From Sporosarcina oncorhynchi (GTDB lineage: Bacteria; Bacillota; Bacilli; Bacillales_A; Planococcaceae): a DNA stretch of 64,000 nucleotides. Positions 4,701-18,800 of the stretch are shown here, piece after piece (positions within the stretch are counted from its first letter, which is position 1; each line of letters begins with the position of its first letter). Where the stretch lies: positions 306,001 to 370,000 of the forward strand of contig NZ_CP129118.1 of assembly GCF_033304615.1 (NCBI RefSeq), written 5' to 3'. The translations under genes and the position numbers were made by a program. The notes beneath the pieces are model-generated. The model worked only from the letters and a program-made list of their open reading frames with translations, had not been told where the DNA came from and searched no databases.

Positions 4701-5453
4701 TCAGCGGATCGTGCGGCAGAACGTTTCACTTTTGCAAGCATCACTGCACAGCCGAAAGAAGTCATCCCAACACCTGTATTCAGTGGTTCAAACAAGATGG
4801 GTCGCAGATACTCACCGTTTACGACGAATATCGAACGCCTCGTGCCTTTTAGAACATTGACGGGCAGACAGCATTTCTATATTGACCATGAACTATTTCT
4901 GGATTTCGGCGAATCATTGCCGGTCTATAAACCGACCTTGCCGCCGATGGTTCTTGGTCCAAGTGATAAACCGATTGTCGGAGGACAAGATGCGCTTGTC
5001 CTGCGTTACTTAACACCACACGGCAAGTGGAATATCCACTCCACTTACCAAGACAACCAGCATATGCTGACATTATTCCGCGGTGGCCCAACGGTCTGGC
5101 TTTCAGACCTTGATGCAGCTGAACACGGTATTGATGACAATGCATGGCTCGAAGTGTACAACCGGAATGGTGTCGTGACTGCACGTGCTGTTGTCAGTCA
5201 TAGAATGCCGAAAGGAACAATGTTCATGTATCATGCCCAGGATAAGCATATCCAGGTGCCGGGCTCCGAAATTACGGAAGAACGTGGAGGCAGCCACAAC
5301 GCGCCGACACGGATTCATATGAAACCGACACAGATGGTCGGCGGATATGCACAGCTCAGCTACGGATTCAACTATTACGGACCGATCGGTAACCAGCGTG
5401 ACGAATATGTAGCGGTCCGCAAGATGAAGGAGGTCAACTGGCTTGAAAATTAA
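1776..5453 (+). CDS. narG: Respiratory nitrate reductase alpha subunit
   Basis: A 1225-residue Mo-bisMGD catalytic subunit of membrane-bound nitrate reductase (nitrate to nitrite, cytoplasmic side). The N-terminal FS0 cluster motif THGVNCTGSCSW with a downstream Cys in YPSCGPD is present. So are the strongly conserved EPRGCPRGASFSWY and SFYDWYADLPPSSPQ; the latter contains the Asp expected to ligate Mo. GEQTDVPESSDW follows. Length matches the family. The gene overlaps narH by 11 nt and is first in narGHJI. NreC-like boxes lie upstream. Confidence 0.98.
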   Translation: MSMNKFSMKYFKPVERYSGNWSVLEEKSRDWENMYRQRWSHDKVVRTTHGVNCTGSCSWKVFVKNGIITWENQQIDYPSCGPDMPEFEPRGCPRGASFSWYEYSPLRVKYPYIRGKLWRMWSQALLEFKDPIKAWASIVEDPKKANDYKKARGKGGHVRIHWRDAKILIAAQLIYTIQKFGPDRIAGFTPIPAMSMVSYASGARFLSLLGGEMLSFYDWYADLPPSSPQIWGEQTDVPESSDWFNAGYIIMWGSNVPLTRTPDAHFMTEVRYKGTKTVSVAPDYAESVVHADDWIAPNPGSDAAVAQAMTHVILDEFYEQRKEPMFINYAKQYTDMPFLITLEPHEKSYKAGRFLRASDLGMESEHSEWKPVIIDETTNEIIVPNGTMGQRWEQEAKWNLILDNEDGTRVAPALTVLDHGAEWTEIQFPYFENTGNGTFTRAIPAKLVKLADGTERLVTTVYDVMMSQYGINRSNSKWDAKGYDDAESFYTPAWQEKITSVKPALVTQIAREFAQNSVDSDGRSMIIMGAGINHWFNSDTIYRAILNLVTLTASQGKNGGGWAHYVGQEKCRPIEGWSTIAFARDWQAPPRLQNGTSFFYFATDQWKYEEGNITSLSSPLGKKARYEHPADYNVLAARLGWLPSYPQFNMNSLKLTEQAAEAGHTTTQEIVDYTVDQLKTGKLNFAIEDPDAPENFPRSLFVWRSNLVSSSAKGQEYFMKHLFGASSGLLARPNENMKPEEIVWRDEVEGKLDLLVALDFRMTATPLYADIVLPAATWYEKVDLSSTDMHPFVHPFNPAVDPLWESKSDWDIFRTLAESFSEMSETHLPGVYKDLVTTPLGHDSIQEIAQPYGEIIDWKKGEIEAIPGKTMPGMTIVERDYTKVYDKYITLGPLLASGKVGAHGVSFSVAQEYEMMKGINGVYFDDTIKDGLPKLYTAKNAAEAMLTLSSATNGRVSQRAFEAAELDTGVELKDISADRAAERFTFASITAQPKEVIPTPVFSGSNKMGRRYSPFTTNIERLVPFRTLTGRQHFYIDHELFLDFGESLPVYKPTLPPMVLGPSDKPIVGGQDALVLRYLTPHGKWNIHSTYQDNQHMLTLFRGGPTVWLSDLDAAEHGIDDNAWLEVYNRNGVVTARAVVSHRMPKGTMFMYHAQDKHIQVPGSEITEERGGSHNAPTRIHMKPTQMVGGYAQLSYGFNYYGPIGNQRDEYVAVRKMKEVNWLEN

Positions 5454-7050
5454 AGCGCAAGTAGCGATGGTCATGAATTTGGATAAATGTATTGGTTGTC
5501 ATACATGCAGTGTGACGTGTAAAACAACTTGGACAAACCGCGAAGGTGCAGAGTATATGTGGTTCAACAACGTAGAAACAAAACCGGGTATCGGATATCC
5601 GAAACGTTGGGAAGACCAGGAACTGTATAAAGGCGGATGGCATTTGCGCAATGGAAAACTTGAACTTAAATCAGGTTCCAAGTTATCGAAAATTGCATTA
5701 GGGAAGATCTTCTATAATCCCGATATGCCTGAAATGAAAGACTTTTATGAGCCATGGACATATGATTATGAGAAACTGACGAATGCACCGGAAAGTGAAC
5801 ATACACCCGTTGCGCGTGCCAAATCAGTCATCTCGGGAGATTATATGGACTTGGAATGGGGACCTAACTGGGAGGATCAGTTAGCCGGGGCTCATATTAC
5901 AGGACCAAAAGACCCGAATATCGAAAAAATTGAAGATGAAATCAAATTCAATTTCGAACAGGCTTTCATGATGTACTTGCCGAGGCTGTGTGAACACTGT
6001 CTTAATCCTAGCTGTGTTGCATCATGTCCGGCAGGTGCAATCTACAAGCGTGAAGAAGACGGCATCGTGCTCGTCGACCAGGAAGCATGTCGCGGTTGGC
6101 GCTATTGCATGACAGGCTGCCCGTACAAGAAAGTGTACTTCAACTGGAAAACGAACAAAGCGGAAAAATGCACATTCTGTTTCCCACGTGTTGAAGCTGG
6201 ATTGCCGACAGTCTGTTCAGAAACCTGTACTGGCAGAATCCGTTATCTTGGCGTCTTGCTTTATGATGCAGACCGAGTTCTAGAAGCGGCATCGACGCCG
6301 GATCCAAAAGACCTGTATAAAGCGCAATGTGATTTGTTCCTCGATCCATATGATCCTGCAGTCATTGAACAAGCGTTGAATGATGGCATTTCAGAAGACT
6401 GGCTAGAAGCAGCAAAAAACTCACCTGTCTACAAACTCGCGATTGAGTATAAATTGGCATTCCCGTTGCATCCTGAATACCGTACTTTACCAATGGTCTG
6501 GTATGTACCGCCACTAAGCCCGATTATGAATTACTTTGAAGGAAAGGATTCCATCAAAAACCCGGATATGATTTTCCCGGCAATTGAAGAAATGAGAATC
6601 CCGATTCAATATTTGGCGAATATGCTGACGGCAGGGGATACAGAAACCGTGAAAGGTGGATTGCAACGGATGGCGATGATGCGTTCTTATATGCGAGCAG
6701 TGTCTTCTGGCAAGGAATTCGATGAAACTAAACTCGAGCGAGTCGGCTTGACGGCGCATCAGACGAAACAGATGTATCGACTGCTCGCTATCGCGAAATA
6801 TGAAGACCGTTTTGTCATTCCTACTTCGCACAAGGAGGGGACGATGAACGTTTACCGTTCCCAAGGTTCGGCTGGTTACAATGAACAAATGGGTGGGAGC
6901 TATGGTGAAGGACCTTCGAAAGACCCGTACAATTTTTCCATGTATGACTCAAATGGCGATTGTGATGGTTGCGGAGTGACATCAGCTCCGGAGAAAACAG
7001 GCAAGCAAATCTATGAAGAGAACTTCTATGGGGGGATCTGGCGTGATTAA
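5443..7050 (+). CDS. narH: Respiratory nitrate reductase beta subunit
   Basis: Electron-transfer subunit (535 aa) carrying Fe-S clusters between NarI hemes and NarG. Four cysteine clusters are visible: CIGCHTCSVTC near 16, CEHCLNPSCVASCP near 185, CRGWRYCMTGCP near 215 (Trp in place of one Cys, as expected for the [3Fe-4S] cluster) and CTFC...CSETC near 245. The TTG start at 5443 follows AAGGAGG and lies inside the narG end. The C-terminal tail has an extra CDGCG motif; I do not know whether this is common in the family. Confidence 0.97.
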   Translation: MKIKAQVAMVMNLDKCIGCHTCSVTCKTTWTNREGAEYMWFNNVETKPGIGYPKRWEDQELYKGGWHLRNGKLELKSGSKLSKIALGKIFYNPDMPEMKDFYEPWTYDYEKLTNAPESEHTPVARAKSVISGDYMDLEWGPNWEDQLAGAHITGPKDPNIEKIEDEIKFNFEQAFMMYLPRLCEHCLNPSCVASCPAGAIYKREEDGIVLVDQEACRGWRYCMTGCPYKKVYFNWKTNKAEKCTFCFPRVEAGLPTVCSETCTGRIRYLGVLLYDADRVLEAASTPDPKDLYKAQCDLFLDPYDPAVIEQALNDGISEDWLEAAKNSPVYKLAIEYKLAFPLHPEYRTLPMVWYVPPLSPIMNYFEGKDSIKNPDMIFPAIEEMRIPIQYLANMLTAGDTETVKGGLQRMAMMRSYMRAVSSGKEFDETKLERVGLTAHQTKQMYRLLAIAKYEDRFVIPTSHKEGTMNVYRSQGSAGYNEQMGGSYGEGPSKDPYNFSMYDSNGDCDGCGVTSAPEKTGKQIYEENFYGGIWRD

Positions 7051-7612
7051 CTTGGATCATCTATACGCTGAAAAGAGTGTCTTCGGATTTTTCGCGAGTC
7101 AGCTATCCTATCCTGAGAAGCAAACATTCCATCCTTCGGTATTGGAAGAGTCAATCGACTCTTCCGATCCCGCTTACAAGGATGTCAAGCGCTATTGGGA
7201 TCTAATGCACACATACAGTCTTGAGGAAATACAAGAGCTCTATACGCACACATTCGATTTCCAAAAAGATTCTACGCTGTTTATGACATATGTGAAGTAC
7301 GAAGAGTCGAGAGAGCGAGGACAAATGCTCGCTAGATTGAAAGTACTTTACGAAATGTTTGGACTGATTATGCCTGACAATGAATTATCCGACTATCTCC
7401 CACTTATGTGTGAATTTATCTATGCGGCGGAATGGAGGGGGGATCCGCGTGCGCAGCAAAGCTTCTCGATGTTGCTGGCAGTCCTTGAAGACGGATCCTA
7501 TAATCTGATGAAAGCGCTTGAGAAGTATGACAGTCCTTATTATTATCTCGTCAGAGGGATGAGGGAAGTCTTCAAGTCTTGCATCCAACAGGAGGTTCCT
7601 GCAAATGACTAA
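7043..7612 (+). CDS. narJ: Nitrate reductase assembly chaperone NarJ
   Basis: A 189-residue system-specific chaperone (TorD/NarJ family, all-helical) that keeps NarGH competent for Mo cofactor insertion and membrane docking. It is not part of the final enzyme. I chose the GTG at 7043, which follows GGGGGAT and overlaps the narH stop, over an upstream ATG at 7013 lying well inside narH with no ribosome site. The sequence is rich in helices and acidic residues (EEIQELYTHTFDFQ, MCEFIYAAEW) as expected. It overlaps narI by 8 nt. Confidence 0.93.
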   Translation: MINLDHLYAEKSVFGFFASQLSYPEKQTFHPSVLEESIDSSDPAYKDVKRYWDLMHTYSLEEIQELYTHTFDFQKDSTLFMTYVKYEESRERGQMLARLKVLYEMFGLIMPDNELSDYLPLMCEFIYAAEWRGDPRAQQSFSMLLAVLEDGSYNLMKALEKYDSPYYYLVRGMREVFKSCIQQEVPAND

Positions 7613-8297
7613 CCAATTCCTATGGGTCATTTTTCCATACGTCTGTATGGCAGTTTTCGTAGTCGGCCACATTTTCCGTTACCGGCATGACCAATTCGGA
7701 TGGACGGCTAAATCGAGTGAATTTATTGAGAAGAAACAACTGATGATTGGAAGTCTTCTATTCCATATTGGGATAATCCCCGTTATCCTAGGCCACATTT
7801 CGGGATTGGGTATTCCGAAAGAATGGACGCGAGCACTTGGTGTAAGTGACCATATGTATCATATGGGCGCAGTATGGGGTGGAGGGTTTTTCGGAGTTGT
7901 GACACTTGCTGGGATGGTAATCCTTACAGCACGACGCTTTACGCACCGAAATGTTCGGAAATTGTCATCTGCATCCGATTTAATTGTCAATACACTGTTA
8001 TTGTTTATCGTCTTTATCGGAGTGTACGCTTCCTTAATCACGAATAACATAACGCCGGGATTCGACTACCGCGATTCAATCTCGGTATGGTTCAGATCAC
8101 TTCTCATTTTCAGACCTGAAGCGGGCTATATGGCCGCAGCTCCATGGACATTTAAGCTACATATATTGACCGGGTTTTTAATATTTGCAATGTGGCCTTT
8201 CACGCGCCTCGTCCATGTGTGGAGCGTACCATTGAATTATGCCGGCAGGAGTTATATTCTGTATAGGAGATCACCTGTGAAAAAGCATAGACGATAA
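7605..8297 (+). CDS. narI: Respiratory nitrate reductase gamma subunit (cytochrome b)
   Basis: A 230-residue membrane subunit with five hydrophobic segments that takes electrons from menaquinol through two b-type hemes and passes them to NarH. His residues in the second and last helices (LFHIGIIPVILGH, FKLHILTGF...TRLVH) are candidate heme ligands. The ATG overlaps the narJ end. The C terminus is basic (SPVKKHRR). It closes narGHJI; nreA begins 25 nt later, so the sensor genes are probably co-transcribed. Confidence 0.95.
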   Translation: MTNQFLWVIFPYVCMAVFVVGHIFRYRHDQFGWTAKSSEFIEKKQLMIGSLLFHIGIIPVILGHISGLGIPKEWTRALGVSDHMYHMGAVWGGGFFGVVTLAGMVILTARRFTHRNVRKLSSASDLIVNTLLLFIVFIGVYASLITNNITPGFDYRDSISVWFRSLLIFRPEAGYMAAAPWTFKLHILTGFLIFAMWPFTRLVHVWSVPLNYAGRSYILYRRSPVKKHRR

Positions 8298-8322
8298 CAG
8301 AATGTGTAGGGAGCAAAAAGAT

Positions 8323-8799
8323 ATGTTAGAGCGGATAATGTTTGATTTTCAATATGAAATTGAACAGTTAAAAGAACAATTCGGATTTGATTACGTTGCG
8401 CTTGCGCTTGTGCAGTCATCCGAACGGCGATTTGAATTGAAATGGACATTTGTGGCGGGAAACCGCAGTGAAAGGTATCGGCGGATTAAACTCCAGTCCG
8501 GTAAAGGCGTTGCCGGTCTTGTATTCAAGACGGGAAAACCAATGTATATCGGAGATGCGGAGTCAGAACTGAAAGAGATGGATCTGTTCAACTATCCGAT
8601 TGTCGTAGCGGAAGGATTGAAGAGTTTCGGCGCCATTCCGCTGTATAAATATAACCGTGTACTGGGTGTATTACTAGTGGGTTATCGGACAGAAATGGGC
8701 TTGACCCCCATGCAGTTTGAAGCGTTTAAACAACGGATAGGACCCCGGTTCGGGCCATTTTATAATAAGGAGATGGTGACCGATGAGTCGGACGAATAA
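8323..8799 (+). CDS. nreA: GAF-domain nitrate sensor NreA
   Basis: A 158-residue single GAF domain (GKGVAGLVFKTGKPMYIGD, KSFGAIPLYKYNRVLGVLLVGY). Known family knowledge: NreA binds nitrate and modulates the kinase NreB in staphylococci. The ATG at 8323 lies 9 nt after AGGGAG; an earlier in-frame ATG at 8302 has no ribosome site. It overlaps nreB by 17 nt, fitting a tightly coupled nreABC set. Confidence 0.88.
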   Translation: MLERIMFDFQYEIEQLKEQFGFDYVALALVQSSERRFELKWTFVAGNRSERYRRIKLQSGKGVAGLVFKTGKPMYIGDAESELKEMDLFNYPIVVAEGLKSFGAIPLYKYNRVLGVLLVGYRTEMGLTPMQFEAFKQRIGPRFGPFYNKEMVTDESDE

Positions 8800-9850
8800 T
8801 GTGCAACTGTCCGCGCTGCTTATGAAAATGTACAGCAATTCGGGTGAAGCCATCTTCTTCTTTGATAGTAATGGAAAAGTGCTGTCTATGAACAAGGCGG
8901 CTGAAGACATTGTTAGTGAAGATGTATACACGCGGATGATGCAAGGAAGTACAGATGCGATTTGTCTGACATGTAAAGGGTTTACGAGTTCAGAAGAAAA
9001 ACAGACGTGCGTTTCTTGCTACATGTCAGACCCGGATAAGGATGTCGGTTCATTCCAAGTGTATTTCGAAACAGAGGGACGAGGCATTATTCCGTATTCA
9101 GGAAGTATTCAAACCATCGATACTGAAATGGGTATAAGGGCTTTTATGCTGCGTGATCTGACTGTGCAATACAAGACACAGGAAGAACTGAATCAGAAAC
9201 AGTTAATGAAACAAGTTATCAAGGCGCAGGAGAATGAACGGAAGCGTATTTCGCGTGAACTTCATGACGGCGTGGCACAAGAAATGCTCAGCTCGTTGGT
9301 AGATTTGCGCGTCTTGAAATATATGGATGTCGAAAAAGATGTTCTGAAGAAAGTTGAGCAGACGGAAGGTACATTAATGCGTCTGTTAGATGATATCCGT
9401 CATCTGTCCGTGGAGTTACGCCCTGCAACGTTAGATGATCTTGGTCTTGAAGCGGCGTTCCGTACACATTTTAAATGGTTGGAGAAGAATTACGGTTTTG
9501 TTGTCGTTTTCCACCCTGAACTACAATCAAAGCGATATGAAGGGGAAATTGAAACAGTCGTCTACCGGATTTGTCAAGAAGCGGTATTTAATGCGCTGAA
9601 ATATGCAGATGTTGACGAAGCTGTCGTCCGTTTATATGAGGAAGATAATTTTCTTCGTTTAATCGTGGCAGATGAAGGGAAGGGTTTTCAAATCGACAAC
9701 ACGACTCCCCAAGGCACAGGGCTCGGCGTTCACGGCATGAAAGAGCGTACGGAGCTAGTCGATGGTTCAATAACAATCCGTTCTGAAATAGGAAAAGGAA
9801 CGGTTGTACTATTGGATGTACCGATTCGTGAAGGGGGAGAAGGTTTGTGA
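8783..9850 (+). CDS. nreB: Oxygen-sensing histidine kinase NreB
   Basis: A 355-residue cytoplasmic kinase. The N-terminal PAS-like domain has Cys61-x2-Cys64-x11-Cys76-x2-Cys79, the same spacing as the four cysteines binding the O2-labile [4Fe-4S] cluster in staphylococcal NreB. The HisKA_3 phosphoacceptor region RISRELHDG (His161) and the HATPase region ([32 protein letters not shown]) follow. There are no membrane segments. Anaerobiosis is expected to keep the cluster and drive phosphorylation of NreC. Confidence 0.95.
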
Positions 9851-10494
9851 AAATTATTATCGCAGATGATCATGCCGTCGTGAGAAGTGGGTTCATGCAC
9901 ATCCTTAACTATCAGAATGATATGGATGTTGTAGCGACTGCAGCTGACGGTTTGGAAGCATATGAATTAGTAGCGAAACACCGTCCGGACATATTGCTCA
10001 TGGATTTGAGCATGCCGCCCGGCGAAAGTGGATTGATTGCTACAGGGAAAATCAAAGAAGATTTTCCGGAAACGAAAGTCATCATTCTAACGATGTACGA
10101 TGACGAAGAGTATTTGTTTCATGTATTGAAAAACGGAGCATCGGGGTATGTACTTAAAAACTCTCCCGATGAAGAACTATTGACGGCTATTCGTACGATT
10201 TATGATGGAGGTACTTATATCCACCCGTCCATGGCGACATCTCTAGTTCGACAGTTTGTGAAGAAGGACTTCGATGAAATGGAGACCGATCCTTATAAAA
10301 TTCTTTCTCGGCGCGAGATTGAGATCCTGCCACTTGTCGCAAAGGGATATGGCAATAAAGAAATCGCCGAAATGCTTTATATTTCTGTAAAAACCGTCGA
10401 AGCTCATAAGTCTAAAATCATGGAGAAGCTACATTTGAAAAACAGGCCTGAGCTCGTCGAATATGCACTGCGAAAGAAATTTCTAAACTTCTGA
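9847..10494 (+). CDS. nreC: Response regulator NreC (NarL/LuxR type)
   Basis: A 215-residue two-domain regulator. The receiver has the acidic pair DD near 7-8 and the phospho-Asp in LLMDLSMP (Asp53). The LuxR-type HTH is at the C terminus ([39 protein letters not shown] in part). The GTG start overlaps the nreB stop (GTGA). It likely binds the TAGGG-N4-CCCTA-like boxes at 819 and 1657, closing a loop on the nar operon. Confidence 0.95.
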
Positions 10495-10508
10495 CAGGAG
10501 GTGTGATT

Positions 10509-11036
10509 TTGACGACTGCCAATACATTTAAAAACGATTTGCCAGCGTTACGCATTCTTGAAAATGAACATAACTATCTATCCTATTTGATGGATGGTTG
10601 GCATGCAATTGTATTAGGGTTTGAACGTGATATCTATACGGAGGAAGAAGCGAGAGAAGCGATAAAAACATTACGCAAACTAATCGTGGAGTTCATCGAA
10701 CCTTTTAAGAACCATACGGAAAAAGAAGAGGGAATTCTGTTTCCTATGTTGTCTAAGTATATTGGTGACGAGCAAGGGCCAATCATGGCGCTTGAAGAGG
10801 AACACGAAGAGATCGACGCGTACATCGGCCATTTTCTGCATCATACACTGGGTGATATGGGTGCCTTGTCGTTACAGCAAATGAAAGATGTGGTGAAGGA
10901 TGCAGGGGAAGCCTTCGAAGTAATCATCATTCATTTCGTTAAAGAACAATCAATCGTATTTCCGATGGTGATTAATACATTACGTATTACAGAGCAAGAT
11001 CAATTGGCGGAGGAACTTCATACATCCATCATTTAA
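10509..11036 (+). CDS. Hemerythrin-domain protein
   Basis: A 175-residue single hemerythrin HHE-type helical bundle. Putative iron ligands are in ENEHNYLSY, FKNHTEKEEGILFP, LEEEHEEIDAYIGHFLHH and IIHFVKEQSIVFP. It may bind O2 or NO or store iron; its role here is not known. I chose the TTG at 10509, 5 nt after AGGAGGTG, since the GTG at 10503 overlaps that site. It follows nreC by 14 nt, so it is probably co-expressed with the oxygen sensor. Confidence 0.85.
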   Translation: MTTANTFKNDLPALRILENEHNYLSYLMDGWHAIVLGFERDIYTEEEAREAIKTLRKLIVEFIEPFKNHTEKEEGILFPMLSKYIGDEQGPIMALEEEHEEIDAYIGHFLHHTLGDMGALSLQQMKDVVKDAGEAFEVIIIHFVKEQSIVFPMVINTLRITEQDQLAEELHTSII

Positions 11037-11092: not shown

Positions 11093-12604
11093 ATGGTTAA
11101 AAAAGCTCAGTTGCCGTTACAGACCGCAAACCTGGTTGTTGGATTCATGGTGTGGGTCCTAATATCTTCCTTACTCCCATTCATCGCAGAAGACATTGCA
11201 ATCCCCCCTGAGAGGTTAGCGATTGTCACGGCTGTACCTATCGTATTGGGATCGATTTTACGTATCCCCCTAGGTTATTATGCGAATGTTTTTGGAGCGC
11301 GTATCATCTTCATGGTTAGCTTCATCTTGCTGCTTTTTCCGGTGTTCTACATAAGTGAGACATCTACATTCACCGGATTGATTATCGGAGGGACTTTCCT
11401 TGGTATCGGAGGCGCGGTCTTCTCAGTAGGTGTTACATCGTTACCGAAGTATTATCCGAAATCCAAGCATGGATTAGTTAATGGGATTTATGGAATGGGG
11501 AATATCGGAACCGCAGTTTCGACATTTGCTGCTCCTGTCATTGCCACTCAAATTGGCTGGTCGATGACAGTTAAATTGTACTTAGTCCTATTGTTAGTTT
11601 TCGTAGCATTGAACTTTATCTTCGGTGACAAACAGGAAGTGAAAAGTAAGACACCAATTGTTGAACAGATAAAAGGTGTTTATAAAAATGAAAAACTATG
11701 GTTCTTCTCATTGTTCTATTTCATCACTTTTGGTTCGTTCGTGGCGTTTACCGTATTTCTGCCGAATTTCCTCGTAACCTATTTCGAGTTGGAGAAAGTA
11801 GATGCAGGGATGCGAACGGCTGGATTCATCGTTGTTGCGACATTACTGCGCCCGGTCGGTGGTTGGCTCGCCGATAAGTTTCAGCCGTTGTTCCTGCTCA
11901 TGGGTTCTTTTGCGGGATTGACTGTAGCTGCAATTATTCTGGCGTTTTCTCCCGGAATCGAATTGTATACAGTAGGCAGTATTTTAATCGCTTCAATGGC
12001 GGGGATTGGGAACGGCGTTATATTCAAACTCGTTCCATTCTATTTTAATAAGCAAGCGGGTATTGCAAACGGAATCGTCTCCATGATGGGTGGACTTGGT
12101 GGGTTCTTCCCTCCGTTATTATTGGCTACAATCCATTCCATGACGGGATCGTATTCTATTGGTTTCATGGCATTCTCACAAGTCGCGCTCGTCAGTCTTG
12201 TACTAGTTGTATGGCTCTACTATATGGATCGCTTATCCTTGGCAAAAGAAGTGTTCGATTCTACAGGACAAGGGATACTTGTCACGAACCCTGATGGCAC
12301 AATCCTGTCTGTTAACCCTGCATTTACGAACCTGACGGGGTATACTGAAGAAGAAGTGGTAGGGAGTAATCCGAATCTTCTCAGTTCAGGCAGACAATCG
12401 AAACAATTTTATACAACCATGTGGAGCATCATCGGTGATAAAGGTTCCTGGCAAGGCGAAGTTTGGAATAAACGCAAAGACGGCACTGAGTATTTAGAGT
12501 TATTAACCATCAATGCCGTGCAAAATAAGGCTGGAGATATCGAACGGTATGTAGGTACTTTCACGGATATTACTCCGCAATCCAAAGAGGGCAGCCGATC
12601 GTAA
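11093..12604 (+). CDS. NarK/NarT-type nitrate/nitrite transporter with C-terminal PAS domain
   Basis: A 503-residue protein. Residues 1 to about 380 form an MFS nitrate/nitrite porter of the NNP family. It has the Gly-rich signatures NGIYGMGNIGTAVSTF and GIGNGVIFKL...IVSMMGGLGGFFPP and substrate-type Arg residues (SILRIP, Arg57; TLLRPVGG). Residues ~387-498 form a PAS domain (GILVTNPDGTILSVNPAF, GYTEEEVVGSNPNLLSSG, GSWQGEVWNKRKDG). Normal NarK proteins stop after the last helix, so this fusion is unusual. The PAS resembles the flavin-binding PAS1 of NifL, including Trp-x-G-x-x-x-N/W-x-R-K-D. Gating by redox or O2 is inference. The ribosome site is weak. Confidence 0.9.
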   Translation: MVKKAQLPLQTANLVVGFMVWVLISSLLPFIAEDIAIPPERLAIVTAVPIVLGSILRIPLGYYANVFGARIIFMVSFILLLFPVFYISETSTFTGLIIGGTFLGIGGAVFSVGVTSLPKYYPKSKHGLVNGIYGMGNIGTAVSTFAAPVIATQIGWSMTVKLYLVLLLVFVALNFIFGDKQEVKSKTPIVEQIKGVYKNEKLWFFSLFYFITFGSFVAFTVFLPNFLVTYFELEKVDAGMRTAGFIVVATLLRPVGGWLADKFQPLFLLMGSFAGLTVAAIILAFSPGIELYTVGSILIASMAGIGNGVIFKLVPFYFNKQAGIANGIVSMMGGLGGFFPPLLLATIHSMTGSYSIGFMAFSQVALVSLVLVVWLYYMDRLSLAKEVFDSTGQGILVTNPDGTILSVNPAFTNLTGYTEEEVVGSNPNLLSSGRQSKQFYTTMWSIIGDKGSWQGEVWNKRKDGTEYLELLTINAVQNKAGDIERYVGTFTDITPQSKEGSRS

Positions 12605-12619: not shown

Positions 12620-12650
12620 GCTTCATTGAAAGTAAGGAGTGGTGACGGAA

Positions 12651-13670
12651 ATGGACAATAGATATTCTCGTCAGACGCTGTTCAAACCAATTGGTAATGC
12701 AGGTCAGGCCTTATTGAAGGATGCCCATGTCGTTATCATCGGTTGCGGCGCGTTGGGCTCACCTATTTCAGAGACACTCGTCAGGGCTGGCGTCGGCAAA
12801 TTGACGATAGCTGATCGCGATTATGTCGAGTTGTCCAATCTGCAAAGGCAACAGTTATTTACGGAGCAGGACGCGTTGGAAGGTACACCGAAAGTGGTGG
12901 CAGCGGCACGTCGCTTGAAAGAAATTCGTTCGGATTGTGAAATCCATACAGTGCTAGACCATATCGACGGACCGTTATTGGAAGAAGTGGCGGACGGTGC
13001 TGACCTGATTATGGATGCGACCGATAACTTTGAGACAAGGCTACTGATGAATGATGTTGCCTGGAAAAAAGGGATACCGTGGATTTATGGAGCTTGTGTC
13101 GGTAGTTCAGGCACTGTCTTTTCGTTCGTACCGGGTGAAACGGCTTGCTTCCGCTGTTTGTTGCCTGTCATTCCTTCGGTTAATGAAACATGTGATACTG
13201 CAGGCATTATAGCGCCAGCTGTTCAAATCGTAGCGGCGAGACAGGCAGCAGAAGCGTTAAAGTGGTTGACGGGCAACAAAGAGTCAATGATGACGAAGCT
13301 ACTCCATTTTGATGTGTGGAACAATACACAAGTGGAAGCAGGAATTTCACGGTTACGCAACAAAGCATGTGAAACATGCGGGGAAATACCTACATACCCT
13401 TCCATCGATCAAGCGGAAGGGACAAATTACGCCGTGTTATGCGGTAGGGATACCGTCCAGATTATTCCTGATCGCAATCGTTCACTGACACTTGCAGACG
13501 GAAGACGGCTCGCGGAGCGATTAGGAGCAGACTATAAAATGACGCCCTTCTTCGTAGAATTCCACGCAAGTGGTTATCGTTGTGTCCTGTTTCAAAACGG
13601 CCGACTGCTCATTCATGGATTGCGTGATAGGCAAGAAGGACGTAAGCTATATCATCACTTTTTTGGATAA
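12651..13670 (+). CDS. moeB: MoeB/ThiF-family adenylyltransferase
   Basis: A 339-residue E1-like enzyme that adenylates the C-terminal Gly-Gly of MoaD to activate it for sulfur transfer in molybdopterin synthesis. The nucleotide-binding VIIGCGALGSPISE near 30, the RQ-rich NLQRQQLFTEQDA and MDATDNFETR are visible. Zn-type Cys pairs occur in CFRCLLP and CETCGEIP. No rhodanese domain follows; the C-terminal ~75 residues are of the MoeB type found in Bacillus. The ATG at 12651 gives the typical MDNRYSRQTLF start; two in-frame GTGs lie in the ribosome site. Confidence 0.92.
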   Translation: MDNRYSRQTLFKPIGNAGQALLKDAHVVIIGCGALGSPISETLVRAGVGKLTIADRDYVELSNLQRQQLFTEQDALEGTPKVVAAARRLKEIRSDCEIHTVLDHIDGPLLEEVADGADLIMDATDNFETRLLMNDVAWKKGIPWIYGACVGSSGTVFSFVPGETACFRCLLPVIPSVNETCDTAGIIAPAVQIVAARQAAEALKWLTGNKESMMTKLLHFDVWNNTQVEAGISRLRNKACETCGEIPTYPSIDQAEGTNYAVLCGRDTVQIIPDRNRSLTLADGRRLAERLGADYKMTPFFVEFHASGYRCVLFQNGRLLIHGLRDRQEGRKLYHHFFG

Positions 13671-13685
13671 GGGAAGGTGTATGGA

Positions 13686-14189
13686 GTGTCGCATTTGACA
13701 GAAATAGATACAAAACAACCGGTAATTATCGGAGTGTTGACGGTAAGTGATACAAGAAAGAAAGAGACGGATAAAAGCGGTGCAACAATTATCCGGATGG
13801 CAGAGAGTGCCGGTCACCGAATCGGGGATTACCGGATTTGTACGGATGACCCTGCTGAGATTATGACAGTCGTGGCAGATTATATGAGGCATGACGCTAT
13901 TCAAGCAATCATCATTACAGGCGGTTCGGGCATTAGCAAACGTGATCAGACAATCGAGACAGTCGCACCGCTATTCAATAAAAGTCTTGACGGATTCGGT
14001 GAGCTCTTCCGTTTCCTTAGTTATACGGAAGACGTCGGATCTAAAGCGTTGTTGAGCCGTGCGACTGCGGGTGTAATCGGGGAGAAAGTGCTGTTCGCAC
14101 TGCCTGGATCGTCCAAGGCGGTCGAACTGGCGATGGAGAAACTGATTATCCCTGAGCTGCACCATATCATTCATGAAATAACGAAATGA
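13686..14189 (+). CDS. moaB: Molybdenum cofactor protein MoaB (MPT adenylyltransferase-like)
   Basis: A 167-residue MoaB/Mog-type domain. It has IGVLTVSDTR near the N terminus, the IITGGSGISKRDQTIE loop typical of MPT binding, and the C-terminal LFALPGSSKAVELAMEKLIIPEL. It likely adenylates molybdopterin before Mo insertion by MoeA. The GTG at 13686 has GGAAGGTG 6 nt upstream; a GTG at 13677 lies inside that site. It follows moeB closely and converges with moaC. Confidence 0.9.
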   Translation: MSHLTEIDTKQPVIIGVLTVSDTRKKETDKSGATIIRMAESAGHRIGDYRICTDDPAEIMTVVADYMRHDAIQAIIITGGSGISKRDQTIETVAPLFNKSLDGFGELFRFLSYTEDVGSKALLSRATAGVIGEKVLFALPGSSKAVELAMEKLIIPELHHIIHEITK

Positions 14190-14220
14190 AAAAAGCGGTT
14201 CTGTCATTACAGAGCCCGCT
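14189..14220 (-). terminator. Terminator after moaC
   Basis: Read on the minus strand, AGCGGGCTCTGT-AATG-ACAGAACCGCT is followed by TTTTTT. The stem includes the last codons and stop of moaC. There is no U-run in the plus direction, so moaB is not clearly terminated here. Confidence 0.75.
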
Positions 14221-14698
14221 CGAAATCTCCATTCTTGCCGCCGGTCTTTTTCAATAGCATTGTTGGACCAATGATCATCTCTTTGCCGGCGGCTTTGCAC
14301 ATATCATAAATCGTTAACGCAGCGGCAGAGGCAGCAGTCAACGCTTCCATCTCAACACCCGTAACGCCTTTCGTTTTCACTTCTGCTTGGATATGTACTT
14401 CATATCGGTTGTTTGATTCGTCAATCTGCCATTCAAAGTGGACGTCGACACCAGTTAGAGGAATCGGGTGACACATTGGGATGAGGGATGACGTGTTTTT
14501 AGCCGCCATGATGGCAGCAACTTGCGCAACGGCGAAGACATCTCCTTTTTTATTCGTCCCTTCGGTGATTTGCGAATGAATCAGTTCATTCACAACGATG
14601 GATGAAATAGCAACTGCAGTTCTAGTCGTTACAGATTTATCGGAGACATCAACCATCTTGGCGCGTCCTTGGTCATTAAAATGCGTCAGTTCAGACAT
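14207..14698 (-). CDS. moaC: Cyclic pyranopterin monophosphate synthase
   Basis: A 163-residue second enzyme of Mo cofactor synthesis, turning the MoaA product 3',8-cH2GTP into cPMP. The conserved [39 protein letters not shown] and the C-terminal [13 protein letters not shown] are all present. The ATG at 14698 follows AAAGGA; an in-frame ATG 18 nt further upstream sits in the ribosome site. It is the only Mo cofactor gene on the minus strand, convergent to moaB and divergent from moeA. Confidence 0.95.
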
Positions 14699-14787
14699 TG
14701 CACTCAGTCCTTTCAAGGGTGGTTAGAATAATTTTTCAGTCATATATCGTCAACTTTCAGTATAGCAGAAGATAGGAGAAGATTCGC

Positions 14788-16044
14788 ATGGTCGAAATAA
14801 GAAAACCGATTCCAGTTACTGAAGCTATTCGTCAAGTCATGGAGCATGTTACGCACCTGGGGACGGAAATCGTTCCACTTGAAAATGCGTATGGAAGAAT
14901 ACTGGCGGCACCGATTATCGCCAAACACGATGTACCTCCTTTTGACCGATCGCCATATGATGGATTTGCAATCCGTGCAATCGATTCCGCTGGTGCATCA
15001 GGTGAAAACCGTATGCCTTTCCACGTAATCGGCGAAATTGGTGCAGGTCTCCTTGGAGATAAACCGATCGGTGAAAAGGAAGCATATCGGATTATGACAG
15101 GCGCGCAAATCCCTAAAAATGCAGATGCTGTCGTCATGTTTGAACAGACGGTGGAAAATGAAAATGGGTTCACATTGCGCAAACCATTCGATGCAGGGGA
15201 GAATATTTCGGTACAAGGTGAAGATTGTAAAGAAGGCGAATTGCTTATTGAGGCAGGCACACTCATCCACCCGGGAACAATCGCATTACTCGCGACATTC
15301 GGTTATGCGTTTGTAGAAGTCGCCATTACTCCCGTCGTCGGTATTCTTTCGACAGGAACCGAATTGTTGAACGTGGATGATGAGCTAGTTCCAGGTAAAA
15401 TACGCAATTCGAACGGTCCAATGATTCGCGCGCAGCTCGATCGTATGGATATCTCTTATAAATCGTACGGAATGGCTGCGGATGAGCTCGACATGTGTAC
15501 GTTCGTCGTGGAAAAAGCCTTAGCTGAAACAGACATGCTAATTACGACAGGCGGCGTCTCAGTCGGTGATTATGATTACTTGCCTGCCATTTACGAACGC
15601 TTAGGTGCCAAGATATTATTCAACAAAGTAGCGATGCGTCCAGGTAGTGTCACGACAGTTGCAGAGCTTAACGGCAAATTATTATTCGGATTGTCGGGTA
15701 ACCCTTCCGCCTGTTTTACCGGTTTCGAATTGTTTACAAGACCAGCTATTCTTGGGATGATGGGAGGCACAAACCCGTATATGCCAAGAATGAAAGCTAT
15801 ATTAGGTGAAGATTTCAAAAAGCCGAATCCGTTTACACGTTTTGTCCGTGCTTCTTGGGAGTTCACTCCGACAGGCGTCATTGCAGTGCCTGCAGGTTTC
15901 AATAAATCCAGTGCAGTCTCTTCAATCGCTCGCGGCAATTGCATCATCGTATTGCCTAGCGGTACGAGAGGGTTTTCGACAGGTGATGAAGTGGATATCC
16001 TCCTACTAGGAAGTGAGCTTGGCGTCAGTGAGTGGACGTTGTGA
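14788..16044 (+). CDS. moeA: Molybdopterin molybdenumtransferase
   Basis: A 418-residue enzyme inserting molybdate into adenylated molybdopterin. Domain order fits MoeA: N-terminal PFDRSPYDGFA and GEDCKEGE, central GILSTGTEL...GKIRNSNGPM, MLITTGGVSVGDYD, the KPG-like MRPG, and LFGLSGNPSACFTGFELF. C-terminal domain IV ends near SGTRGFSTGDEVDILLL. The ATG follows AGATAGGAGA. It starts the moeA-mobB-moaE-moaD-mobA-moaA run of overlapping genes. Confidence 0.96.
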   Translation: MVEIRKPIPVTEAIRQVMEHVTHLGTEIVPLENAYGRILAAPIIAKHDVPPFDRSPYDGFAIRAIDSAGASGENRMPFHVIGEIGAGLLGDKPIGEKEAYRIMTGAQIPKNADAVVMFEQTVENENGFTLRKPFDAGENISVQGEDCKEGELLIEAGTLIHPGTIALLATFGYAFVEVAITPVVGILSTGTELLNVDDELVPGKIRNSNGPMIRAQLDRMDISYKSYGMAADELDMCTFVVEKALAETDMLITTGGVSVGDYDYLPAIYERLGAKILFNKVAMRPGSVTTVAELNGKLLFGLSGNPSACFTGFELFTRPAILGMMGGTNPYMPRMKAILGEDFKKPNPFTRFVRASWEFTPTGVIAVPAGFNKSSAVSSIARGNCIIVLPSGTRGFSTGDEVDILLLGSELGVSEWTL

Positions 16045-16553
16045 AGACGCTTCACATCGTCGGCTATAAAAATAGCGGGAAGACAACACTGATCGCGAGG
16101 TGGATTCGTGTATTGAAGCAAAGAGGCCTGACAGTTGCGGTATTGAAGCATCATGGACATGGCGGGAAACCGGATCTGGCGGACAATGATACGGATACGA
16201 ACCAATTTTTAAAGAATGGTGCTAATGCGACAGTTGTGGCGGGTGGCGGAGCTATGCAGTTCATCTGGAATGAAGAGCCTGATTTCCTCCGTCTAAAAGA
16301 GATGGCGGCAACCGGAAAGCCCGACATCCTACTTGTTGAAGGGTATAAAGAGGAACGAGGCGATAAAGTGATTCTCGTTCGCGACGAAGAAGATTGGCAG
16401 ACACTCAGTCTTTTGCAAGGCCGGATTCTTATTATTGGTAGTCCGGATTTCGCTGTTGATTGTCCTCAAATAACAAATAGAGAACAGCATACTGAAATCG
16501 ATAAGTGGTTCAATGAATGGGTGGAGGAGGGGACTGGCGATGAAACAATATGA
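16041..16553 (+). CDS. mobB: Molybdopterin-guanine dinucleotide biosynthesis adaptor MobB
   Basis: A 170-residue P-loop GTPase-like protein (HIVGYKNSGKTTLIARW near the start; LKHHGHGGK; ILLVEGYKEE). It assists MobA in making the bis-MGD used by NarG. I chose the GTG at 16041, overlapping the moeA stop, because it gives the typical MKTLHIVG start; a GTG at 16032 is also possible. It overlaps moaE. Confidence 0.9.
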   Translation: MKTLHIVGYKNSGKTTLIARWIRVLKQRGLTVAVLKHHGHGGKPDLADNDTDTNQFLKNGANATVVAGGGAMQFIWNEEPDFLRLKEMAATGKPDILLVEGYKEERGDKVILVRDEEDWQTLSLLQGRILIIGSPDFAVDCPQITNREQHTEIDKWFNEWVEEGTGDETI

Positions 16554-16986
16554 AATTGTAGAAACACCTATAGATATCAAGCGGTATTCTGATTATGTTC
16601 TTCATCCTGCAGCGGGCGCGGTTACGATTTTCACTGGCAACGTACGAGAGTGGACACATGGTGTGAAGACGTTATATTTAGCGTATGAAGCGTATATCCC
16701 GATGGCGGAAAAAAAACTTGCGGAAATCGGTGCGGAAATGGAAGTGAAGTGGCCGGGAATCCGTGTGGCGATTGCGCATCGAATTGGTGAATTGCAAGTG
16801 TCGGATATCGCTGTTGTCATCGCTGTTTCTTCTCCGCATCGCAAGGCGGCGTATGAAGCGAATGAATATGCGATTGACCGCATTAAGGAAGTCGTTCCGA
16901 TCTGGAAAAAAGAGATTTGGGAAGACGGAGAAGAGTGGATTGGCGCACAGAAGAAATATCCTGAAAAGGGGGTTGAACAACAATGA
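16540..16986 (+). CDS. moaE: Molybdopterin synthase catalytic subunit
   Basis: A 148-residue large subunit that converts cPMP to molybdopterin using thiocarboxylated MoaD. Features: VTIFTGNVREWTHG near 30, LAYEAYIPMAEKKL, HRIGELQVSDIAVVIAVSSPHRKAAYEA, and the C-terminal PIWKKEIWEDGEEWIGA with the lysine-rich active-site segment. The ATG at 16540 follows GGAGGAGGGG. It overlaps moaD by ATGA coupling. Confidence 0.95.
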   Translation: MKQYEIVETPIDIKRYSDYVLHPAAGAVTIFTGNVREWTHGVKTLYLAYEAYIPMAEKKLAEIGAEMEVKWPGIRVAIAHRIGELQVSDIAVVIAVSSPHRKAAYEANEYAIDRIKEVVPIWKKEIWEDGEEWIGAQKKYPEKGVEQQ

Positions 16987-17216
16987 TACAAGTAAATTAT
17001 TTCGCGCGGTTGCGGGAGTTGACGGGTAAAGGCCAGGAGACGCTCAATCGCGACTCAATGACAGTTAAGGAACTGTTGGAGTGGGCAGAAAATACGTATC
17101 CCGGTTTTGGAGCTGACACAATTCAAGTTGCGGTGAATGAGGAGTATGCCCTGAAAGATGATCCGATCCGTTCAGGTGATATATGCGCCTTCATCCCGCC
17201 CGTGAGTGGGGGCTAA
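16983..17216 (+). CDS. moaD: Molybdopterin synthase sulfur carrier subunit
   Basis: A 77-residue ubiquitin-fold protein ending in SGG, the Gly-Gly tail adenylated by MoeB and then thiocarboxylated. It contains NYFARLRELTGK and the family-typical AFIPPVSGG. Its ATG overlaps the moaE stop, so the two synthase subunits are translationally coupled. Confidence 0.95.
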   Translation: MIQVNYFARLRELTGKGQETLNRDSMTVKELLEWAENTYPGFGADTIQVAVNEEYALKDDPIRSGDICAFIPPVSGG

Positions 17217-17809
17217 TGAAGACGGTTGGCGTCGTTCTTGCAGGTGGATTATCGAGCAGGTATGGTTCACCGAAGGCGTTTGCGAAGTGGAATGGGTTTT
17301 ATTTCTATGAACTGGCAATGAATGTGCTGGCACCGTATTGTGATGAAGTTGTCATCGTGACAAGACCGGAATTGGCTGGAAAGTTTGACCACACATTACG
17401 AGTAGTGACGGATCTTGCGGAAGTTGCGGGAGAGGGACCGCTTGCGGGGATCTTATCCGGCATGGATGCGGTTGATGCTGATCGATATATCGTATTGCCG
17501 TGTGATATGCCGTTCATGACGAGTGAAGTGATTGCCAGGCTAGTCGAAAGGCATGAGTCAGCTGTAACGGCTGTCGTACAGGAAGGGAAACTGCATCCGC
17601 TTGTGTCTGTTTGGTCGGGTAAGGCGAAAGTGGAATTGCTGTCTGCACTTGAAAGCGGACAGCGCAAAGTGATGAAAGTGCAGGAAAAGCTTGGCGTGAA
17701 ATGGATTGAAGGCATTACGTTAAGTGACAATCCCCAACACGTCCTAAAGAATGTGAATACTCCGGACATCTTGAGAGGAGTTGACCTAGATGAATCCGAT
17801 TGTAGATAA
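17216..17809 (+). CDS. mobA: Molybdenum cofactor guanylyltransferase
   Basis: A 197-residue nucleotidyltransferase that attaches GMP to molybdopterin. The N-terminal [20 protein letters not shown] holds the Gly-rich GTP site and catalytic Lys; [11 protein letters not shown] holds the metal-binding Asp. The ATG overlaps the moaD stop (TAATG). It overlaps moaA by 20 nt. Confidence 0.94.
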
Positions 17810-18800
17810 ATTAGGCCGCCCGATCCGTGATTTACGGATTTCCGTTACGGACCGCTGTAATTTCAGGTGCACCTATTGCATGCCAAAAGAGATTTTCGGA
17901 GACGATTATGTGTTCCTGCCGAAAAGTGAGCTGCTTTCGTTTGAAGAGATGGAACGGTTTGCGCGCCTCTTTGCAGCACTCGGTGTGAAAAAGTTGCGCT
18001 TGACTGGCGGAGAACCGCTCATGCGTAGGGGTCTCCCGGATTTGATTGATAAGCTGACGAAAATCGATGGAATAGAAGATATCGGACTGACGACGAATGG
18101 CGTACTGCTTGGCCAATATGCACAACCGTTATACGATGCAGGTTTACGACGCTTGAATATGAGTTTGGATGCACTTGATCCGGATATTTTCGGTAAGATG
18201 AATGGCCGTGGCATTAAGCCTGACCTGATCCTGAAGAATATTGACCGCGCGAAAGAAATCGGCTTTACAATCAAGGTGAATATGGTCGTGAAAAAAGGTG
18301 TCAATGAAAGCGAAATCCTTCCGATGGCGGCGTATTTCAAAGAAAGGGATATTACATTGCGCTATATTGAATTCATGGATGTCGGCAATGACAATGGCTG
18401 GAGTTTTGAAAGTGTCGTGACGAAGAAGGAAATTTATGAACGGCTTGCGGCTGAATACGAGATGGAACCTTCTGAAGAAGAGTATTTCGGTGAAGTGGCG
18501 AAGCGTTACCGATATGTCGGGACGGATGCTGAAGTCGGGTTCATCACATCGGTCTCGGAATCGTTCTGCTCATCGTGCACAAGAGCGCGGTTGTCTTCAG
18601 ATGGCAAGTTGTATACATGCCTGTTCGCGTCAGAAGGATTCGACTTGCGTGAGCTAATCCGCAGTGGGATGACGGATGAAGAGTTGCTTGCAGCGATAAC
18701 GGGTGTGTGGGAACGCCGTGCGGATCGCTATTCAGATGAACGGACGGAACAGACAGTGAAAAACCGGAAGAAGATCAATATGAGTTATATAGGTGGATGA
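17790..18800 (+). CDS. moaA: GTP 3',8-cyclase (radical SAM)
   Basis: A 336-residue radical-SAM enzyme for the first Mo cofactor step. The N-terminal SAM cluster motif is CNFRCTYC, followed by LRLTGGEPL. The C-terminal second [4Fe-4S] cluster motif is [21 protein letters not shown], and the end is YIGG (Gly-Gly tail needed for activity in the family). The ATG follows GAGGAG inside mobA. It is the last gene of the Mo cofactor run, followed by a terminator. Confidence 0.97.

Follow-up and report, generated by a model that had tools for sequence, protein, structure and literature searches.

The window, meaning the whole 64,000-nucleotide stretch of DNA analysed here, comes from Sporosarcina oncorhynchi, whose genome is a single contig of 3.48 Mb. 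It carries, in this order on the + strand, the narGHJI respiratory nitrate reductase genes (1776..8297; Pfam NarG, NarH, NarJ and NarI), a gene for an NreA-like GAF protein (8302..8799), genes for an NreB-like sensor kinase with a Cys-rich N-terminal region (8783..9850) and an NreC-like response regulator (9847..10494), a gene for a hemerythrin-domain protein (10503..11036; PF01814), the narK-PAS fusion gene just downstream of it (11093..12604), and the molybdenum cofactor genes moeB/thiF, moaB-like, moeA, mobB, moaE, mobA-like and moaA (12639..18800; Pfam), within which moaC lies on the - strand (14207-14716; Pfam). The kinase is named from its HisKA_3 and HATPase_c domains, its CLTC and CVSC cysteine pairs and its position, and the regulator, with Response_reg and GerE matches, from position and homology; the first-pass annotation had set the fusion beside an NreB kinase, and these nreABC-like genes indeed adjoin it. 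The NreA-like protein scores 128.6 bits against NF038250, under the cut-off of 175, and may sense something other than nitrate. A further hemerythrin-domain protein, which also matches DUF542/ScdA_N, is encoded at 892-1590, so the nar-nre genes have one such protein on either side.

The fusion gene is a single open frame that starts with ATG, contains no internal stop and encodes 503 amino acids, the stop codon being included in its coordinates. Matches to Pfam MFS_1 (residues 15-311, 145.6 bits) and to NCBIfam NarK TIGR00886 (residues 13-337, 202.6 bits, under the cut-off of 311.7 and the best-matching porter family) are followed by matches to Pfam PAS (387-493) and PAS_9 (393-494, 65.8 bits against a cut-off of 27), in agreement with the limits of about 387-498 proposed earlier for the PAS domain. 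The features of the protein are a 12-TM NarK-type MFS porter (residues 1-376; 11093..12220, + strand), placed by alignment to 4jr9/4u4t and by its best fold match 4u4w NarK, TM12 with the linker (residues 354-390; 12152..12262, + strand), modelled as one helix by AlphaFold2, and the PAS domain (residues 387-498; 12251..12586, + strand), delimited by the Pfam matches, by conservation, by mapping to NifL and MmoS, and by the flavin-type W444 and N459 together with P427, Y467 and F490. The continuation of a nitrate/nitrite porter into a full PAS domain, first read from this frame, was borne out by the Pfam and NCBIfam matches and by 132 distinct fused ORFs, the set recovered from fetched homologous loci.

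On sequence grounds, residues 1-376 are a nitrate/nitrite porter of NarK type, with the substrate predicted from homology and from the narGHJI/nreABC-like context. Foldseek ranked 4u4w NarK first (E 6.7e-12), with other MFS transporters nearly equal in score. E. coli NarK (4jr9, 4u4t, 4u4v, 4u4w), which we take to be without a PAS domain, has the MFS fold, two substrate arginines and the expected nitrate/nitrite substrate in common with the window protein, but is only 20% identical to it over the best fold match. In the alignment to 4jr9/4u4t, R57 corresponds to the Arg of ALLRVP and R253 to the Arg of GALARSAGG in E. coli NarK; R57 occurs in 130 fused ORFs (one Ile and one gap make up the 132) and R253 in all of them. 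Since both arginines, described as important for substrate binding in NarK in the available part of PMC5217062, are kept, NarK-PAS seems not to have decayed into a pure receptor. Paracoccus NarK1-NarK2 is likewise a NarK fusion protein, but it consists of two fused transporters with no sensor domain reported in the accessible text of the same paper (PMC5217062), whereas the window protein joins a porter to a PAS domain.

Distribution and history of the fused form

Of 61 genomes sampled from the genus, 48 have a full-length fused copy, one more (G023) retains residues 365-502 only, and 12 gave no match at E <= 1e-20. A full-length fused copy was present in 81 of 261 order genomes. Of 398 genomes in the class, 66 have fused copies: 64 genomes account for 65 full-length matches, and the copies in the other two are 5'-truncated. 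The phylum search (398 genomes, E <= 1e-40) gave matches in 11, of which seven have a fused copy and belong to the class, and the plasmid collection contained one Niallia record with a full-length match at 61%. Among the best 80 of 161 matches, obtained with the fused protein as query, 80/80 loci were fused; the records include ones named Sporosarcina, Planococcus, Paenibacillus, Shouchella, Peribacillus and Brevibacillus, and the closest named relatives of the window protein among them are from Sporosarcina. The search for MFS-PAS architectures proposed in the first-pass annotation therefore succeeded at the levels of genus, order and class, and the fusion, correctly observed, is more widespread than one sequence alone could reveal.

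With five candidate places scored per genome in the order and three in the class and phylum, and weak matches left out, the counts of unfused copies are minima. Among the matches listed, the order contained, besides the G023 remnant and an incomplete additional copy in G064, two unfused NarK-like proteins at 35% identity, while unfused copies at least 50% identical in the class comprised five scattered ones (61-75%) and 32 in family f9 (52-57%). The f9 members, which we take to be Staphylococcaceae, are NarT-like porters that resemble the window porter in the MFS part (52-57% identity), and four of them (L154-L157) lie in the same nar-nre-moco neighbourhood; the 32 listed copies stop shortly past TM12 without a PAS domain, unlike the window porter. 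The earlier statement that NarK proteins normally lack sensory domains thus holds for E. coli NarK and for these 32 copies but fails for close homologues in the order, where the fused form is the rule. It had also been envisaged that the fusion might turn out to be clade-wide and already studied: clade-wide it is, by the order and class counts, and no study of it was found. Specifically, among the papers listed by searches of open-licence full texts on nitrate transporters with PAS domains and on transporters with a C-terminal PAS domain, none names a NarK-PAS fusion in its title or the opening of its abstract, nor does the available text of PMC8139620, PMC8199190 or PMC5217062 describe one, a scope in which absence of reports is no proof that the fusion is unpublished.

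Several irregular loci were noted. In G023 (L187, 5988-6413) only the TM12-PAS end is present, adjoining a 215-aa ORF of nreC size, and most of the porter is absent through either an internal deletion or an assembly error, this genome being 83% complete with 9% contamination. In L168 (G064) the cluster looks partly duplicated, with a second, truncated NarK-PAS (residues 265-503) and repeated moco genes. L043, from a record named Arthrobacter beigongshangensis, carries a Sporosarcina-like cluster with a NarK-PAS 84% identical to that of the window, and its name is probably wrong.

A sequencing frameshift or misassembly that joined two genes, which had been named as a possible refutation of the fusion, can be dismissed almost entirely: no point in its support was found, and it is contradicted by the identical architecture in assemblies across genus, order and class, by the uniform TM12-PAS spacing in 132/132 fused ORFs and by purifying selection on the PAS domain. 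Of 15 pairs, the estimate was finite in 12 for the PAS, where dN/dS was 0.00-0.10, and in 11 for the MFS part, where it was 0.011-0.050; several synonymous distances are saturated. Conservation is lower in the PAS domain than in the MFS part (mean majority frequency 0.70 vs 0.81 over 68 representatives), and the PAS changes faster, with a median PAS/MFS distance ratio of 1.86. The distances of the two parts are correlated (r 0.75, 0 of 2000 permutations equally high), as expected if both were co-inherited.

The neighbourhood is largely retained. Among 100 fused copies, which correspond to 99 loci of at least 6.9 kb with near copies kept and the window not counted, nar genes are in view in 76, nreB- and nreC-similar genes in 77, both in 68 and neither in 15; similarity to nreB and nreC was taken at E <= 1e-8, which also counts kinases alike only in their core. 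A stricter NreB search (E <= 1e-30) of 17 fused-copy genomes, mostly chosen because their nre genes were out of view or diverged and giving no frequency estimate, matched the N-terminal sensor part in six (one at 28% identity) and the kinase core only, or nothing, in 11. At L110, L117, L150 and L184, NarK copies, fused or not, adjoin a molybdopterin oxidoreductase that measures about 730 aa and has an Fe4S4 domain, accompanied by a 4Fe-4S protein, a Rieske protein and a weak gamma-subunit match at L110 and by a Rieske protein at L150; this enzyme is perhaps a second nitrate-reductase type in Bacilli. The occurrence of fused copies without a full NreB match and beside this other oxidoreductase makes it unlikely that the PAS domain is there for NreB alone, and the 11 of 17 genomes without a sensor-part match weaken the idea of the PAS as a partner of NreB only.

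A single origin of the fusion without loss was rejected, as the MFS tree demands five changes of state, at least four of them forced by well-supported branches. This tree contains 80 of 151 distinct ORFs (same-state rows more than 93% identical and rows shorter than 250 residues were dropped), and its outgroup row L166 sits on a very long branch for which the program issued a long-branch warning. The unfused L149, L150, L151 and L152 are nested among fused copies, so that losses of the PAS are likely. In L149, whose copy is 75% identical over the MFS part, the nar-nre-moco neighbourhood is kept without the PAS, and a search of eight loci with unfused copies (L149-L155, L158) revealed no PAS remnant. 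At 138 conserved MFS sites, recomputed for each copy compared, L149-L153 show 0, 0, 7, 2 and 2 changes against 0-5 in 14 fused controls, and three much more distant f9 copies show 20-22. So few changes suggest that the porter does not need the PAS; no interface constraint is visible, and no MFS site conserved when fused yet altered upon PAS loss stood out in the search for a PAS-MFS interface footprint. Judging from these comparisons, repeated loss of the PAS is probable, and the porters left without it show few differences.

The PAS pocket and its nearest relatives

The first-pass annotation had described the domain as a NifL-like flavin PAS from the motifs N-P-A-F, G-Y and others. These motifs are present in the window PAS, but they are common to many PAS domains, and W444 and N459 are more informative. 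Among solved structures the best sequence matches are the FAD domains of MmoS and NifL, and alignment to NifL equates W444 with Trp87 (a number derived from the alignment offset), N459 with Asn102, Y467 with Tyr110, P427 with Glu70, L396 with Ser39 and F490 with His133. W444 and N459 are found in 132/132 fused ORFs, as are W453, Y440, N408 and F411, and position 467 is Tyr in 125 and Phe in 7. The remaining contact places differ from NifL throughout: Pro takes the place of Glu70 in 131/132 (Thr in one), Phe that of His133 in 129 (Leu in 3), and Leu, Met, Ile or Val that of Ser39 in all 132. MmoS PAS-B, which presumably holds no cofactor, likewise aligns a Pro at the Glu70 place.

According to the available part of PMC10468136, FAD binding depends first of all on the F-alpha Trp and additionally on Asn and His; FAD is lost from AxDGC2 and RmcA when the Asn is mutated, in the account of PMC12540587, where the flavin contacts of NifL are also listed, and those of Aer and MmoS are given in PMC9668731 (both as accessible in part). 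NifL PAS1 (2gj3) and MmoS PAS-A (3ewk), both FAD redox sensors, have the Trp and Asn in common with the window PAS but differ at the other places, with Glu70 or His, Ser39, and His133 or Arg where the window PAS has Pro, Leu and Phe, and they sense for kinases whereas the window PAS sits on a transporter. In other words, neither the Glu70 of NifL (His in Aer and MmoS) at the ring nor its His133 (Arg in Aer and MmoS) near N5 has a counterpart. The proposed comparison of FAD contacts with NifL PAS1 thus retains Trp and Asn and finds three of the five listed hydrogen-bonding residues replaced, and with Glu70, Ser39 and His133 gone the window PAS cannot copy the chemistry of NifL. Trp and Asn are also not sufficient for FAD binding, as PA0285 PAS2, predicted from this pair to bind FAD, bound none in thermophoresis (PMC10874727, as far as its text was available).

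Other cofactor chemistries were compared as well. The window PAS contains neither Cys nor His, and no PAS column is dominated by His among 68 representatives; it has no photoactive LOV Cys, whose place is occupied by Pro427, no heme-ligating His of the FixL or DOS kind and no Cys ligands for an NreB-type Fe-S cluster. Without Cys and His, the heme-His, Fe-S and LOV chemistries known from other PAS domains are improbable here, and flavin binding by the window PAS is plausible from its residues.

Judged from sequence, the nearest relatives found for the window PAS belong to Bacilli GGDEF-EAL proteins rather than to NifL. The NCBIfam NifL model covers the PAS part only and scores 79.8 bits, below the 130.2 bits of the DibA phosphodiesterase model on the same part. 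Twelve PAS-only relatives with 40-50% identity were fetched; of ten scanned, nine consist of PAS, GGDEF and EAL domains (one behind a 7TM region) and one of two PAS domains and GGDEF. The residues P, W, W, N, Y and F at 427, 444, 453, 459, 467 and 490 recur in 11 of the 12. In a PAS tree of 111 columns with weak support, used for grouping only and giving no direction of transfer, the NarK-PAS sequences intermingle with those from Bacilli GGDEF proteins, while NifL and MmoS PAS-A stand separately. Membership of the NifL PAS1 group was rejected on this tree and on the replaced Glu70, His133 and Ser39, and NifL is kept as an analogy; the NifL reading was half right, its invariant Trp and Asn standing and its identity with NifL PAS1 falling.

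The Bacilli PAS-GGDEF-EAL proteins differ from NarK-PAS in output, which is c-di-GMP turnover in the former and transport in the latter. Bacillus cereus CdgF, of PAS-GGDEF-EAL type, resembles these relatives in domain architecture; it is described as having a flavin-like spectrum and an activity that switches with redox state in the accessible part of a review (PMC8846402).

The source genome has 16 other PAS_9 matches; the Trp and Asn occur in two, each of which also has the His and Arg typical of MmoS. The complete MmoS/Aer FAD signature of His, Trp, Asn and Arg was noted at L202 (3.376 Mb) and L207 (3.159 Mb), the PAS at L202 belonging to a GGDEF-EAL protein.

Proposed coupling to the porter and alternative readings

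The junction between the two parts is of fixed length, as the residue-370 column in TM12 and the residue-395 column in the first PAS strand span 26 residues in 132/132 fused ORFs. The linker and PAS show no insertion or deletion columns among the 68 representatives, against five insertion columns and one deletion column in the MFS part of the same set, deletion columns being counted only in proteins longer than 490 aa. In sequence, however, the linker is not fixed: none of its 16 positions is invariant, and the mean majority frequency is 0.64. AlphaFold2, run with an alignment of 51 sequences, gave a mean pLDDT of 84.8, a continuous helix over residues 354-390 and pLDDT of 90-94 in the PAS blocks (residues 391-490); a prediction for the isolated PAS that used no alignment was of low quality, with a mean pLDDT of 49.7, and was set aside. 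Such an indel-free and, in the model, helical junction would suit direct PAS-porter coupling, yet vertical inheritance with few indels could also hold the spacing, so the fixed junction suits mechanical coupling and does not prove it.

The reading tentatively favoured, at somewhat under an even chance, is that a cytosolic redox or small-molecule PAS sensor, with flavin as its likeliest cofactor, tunes the NarK porter through TM12; the cytosolic side, the cofactor, the signal, its direction and its effect on transport are what we infer, the first from the usual MFS topology. The C-terminal PAS would act as a cytosolic regulatory module of the porter, with W444 and N459 most likely holding a flavin as its ligand. 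A redox change of the cofactor, or ligand binding, would rearrange the PAS N-cap, and since TM12 runs on into the N-cap helix, the change could reach the transporter, where it would bias the C-terminal half and alter activity. Nitrate import and nitrite export might in this way be matched to the respiratory state, fast and post-translationally, on top of the transcriptional control by NreABC. In favour of this reading stand the spread of the fused form, the uniform spacing, the modelled helix, the retained transport arginines, purifying selection on the PAS, the invariant Trp and Asn, and the grouping with PAS domains of proteins built like CdgF; against it stand PA0285 PAS2, the replaced NifL contacts, the Pro shared with MmoS PAS-B, the few porter changes in unfused copies, the variable linker sequence and the lower conservation of the PAS. 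The bolder version, a redox-gated nitrate porter in a widespread Bacilli lineage, in which a flavin-type PAS with a modified pocket mechanically drives the MFS part via TM12 as a post-translational O2/redox gate, is doubtful.

An unlikely alternative in which the PAS holds no cofactor, and dimerises, stabilises or positions the transporter in the membrane, gains from the case of PA0285, where Trp and Asn go without FAD binding (PMC10874727, in part), from the probable repeated losses of the PAS with the porter little changed, and from NifL PAS1, which dimerises via its N-terminal helix, flanking helices setting the oligomeric state (accessible part of PMC3466315). Set against it are W444, W453, N459, Y440, N408 and F411, which are the same in 132/132 while much else varies; an invariant Trp and Asn are not obviously needed by a mere dimeriser. 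The same pocket could instead serve a non-flavin ligand, for example a metabolite or a heterocyclic compound, with the PAS still regulating the porter, as Pro427 and Phe490 in place of polar flavin contacts and the extra Trp458 beside N459 in 127/132 fused ORFs would allow; this appears quite improbable, given that PAS domains which bind FAD are described as being recognisable by this Trp/Asn pair (PMC10468136, in its available part) and that a domain without Cys and His argues against heme-His, Fe-S and LOV chemistries.

The direction of signalling could also be reversed, with the porter reporting flux or nitrate occupancy via TM12 to a PAS that serves as output by docking NreB, NreA or NarGHI. 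The C-terminal position of the PAS, without an output domain behind it, and the nreB- and nreC-similar genes in view for 77/100 fused copies (E <= 1e-8) would fit such a transceptor. It is nevertheless rather unlikely in view of the 11 of 17 selected genomes with a kinase-core NreB match only or none, the fused genes beside another kind of molybdopterin oxidoreductase, and the f9 copies L154-L157, which keep the same operon without a PAS.

In several bacteria, oxygen quickly shuts off nitrate uptake at the level of transport, and how this happens is unsettled. A sensor-bearing porter conserved across Bacilli, with natural PAS-less relatives and a separable soluble domain, offers a direct test of this oxygen shut-off. 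If the sensor reading is true, NarK-PAS would be a bacterial PAS that regulates a secondary transporter without an intervening kinase or cyclase. The KCNH potassium channels similarly carry a PAS, presumably at the N terminus, on a membrane transport protein. As reported in the accessible text of PMC10468136, the EAG1 channel is modulated by a flavin analogue that binds to its PAS; these are eukaryotic channels, however, and their PAS domains fall in the FMN/LOV cluster (PMC10468136).
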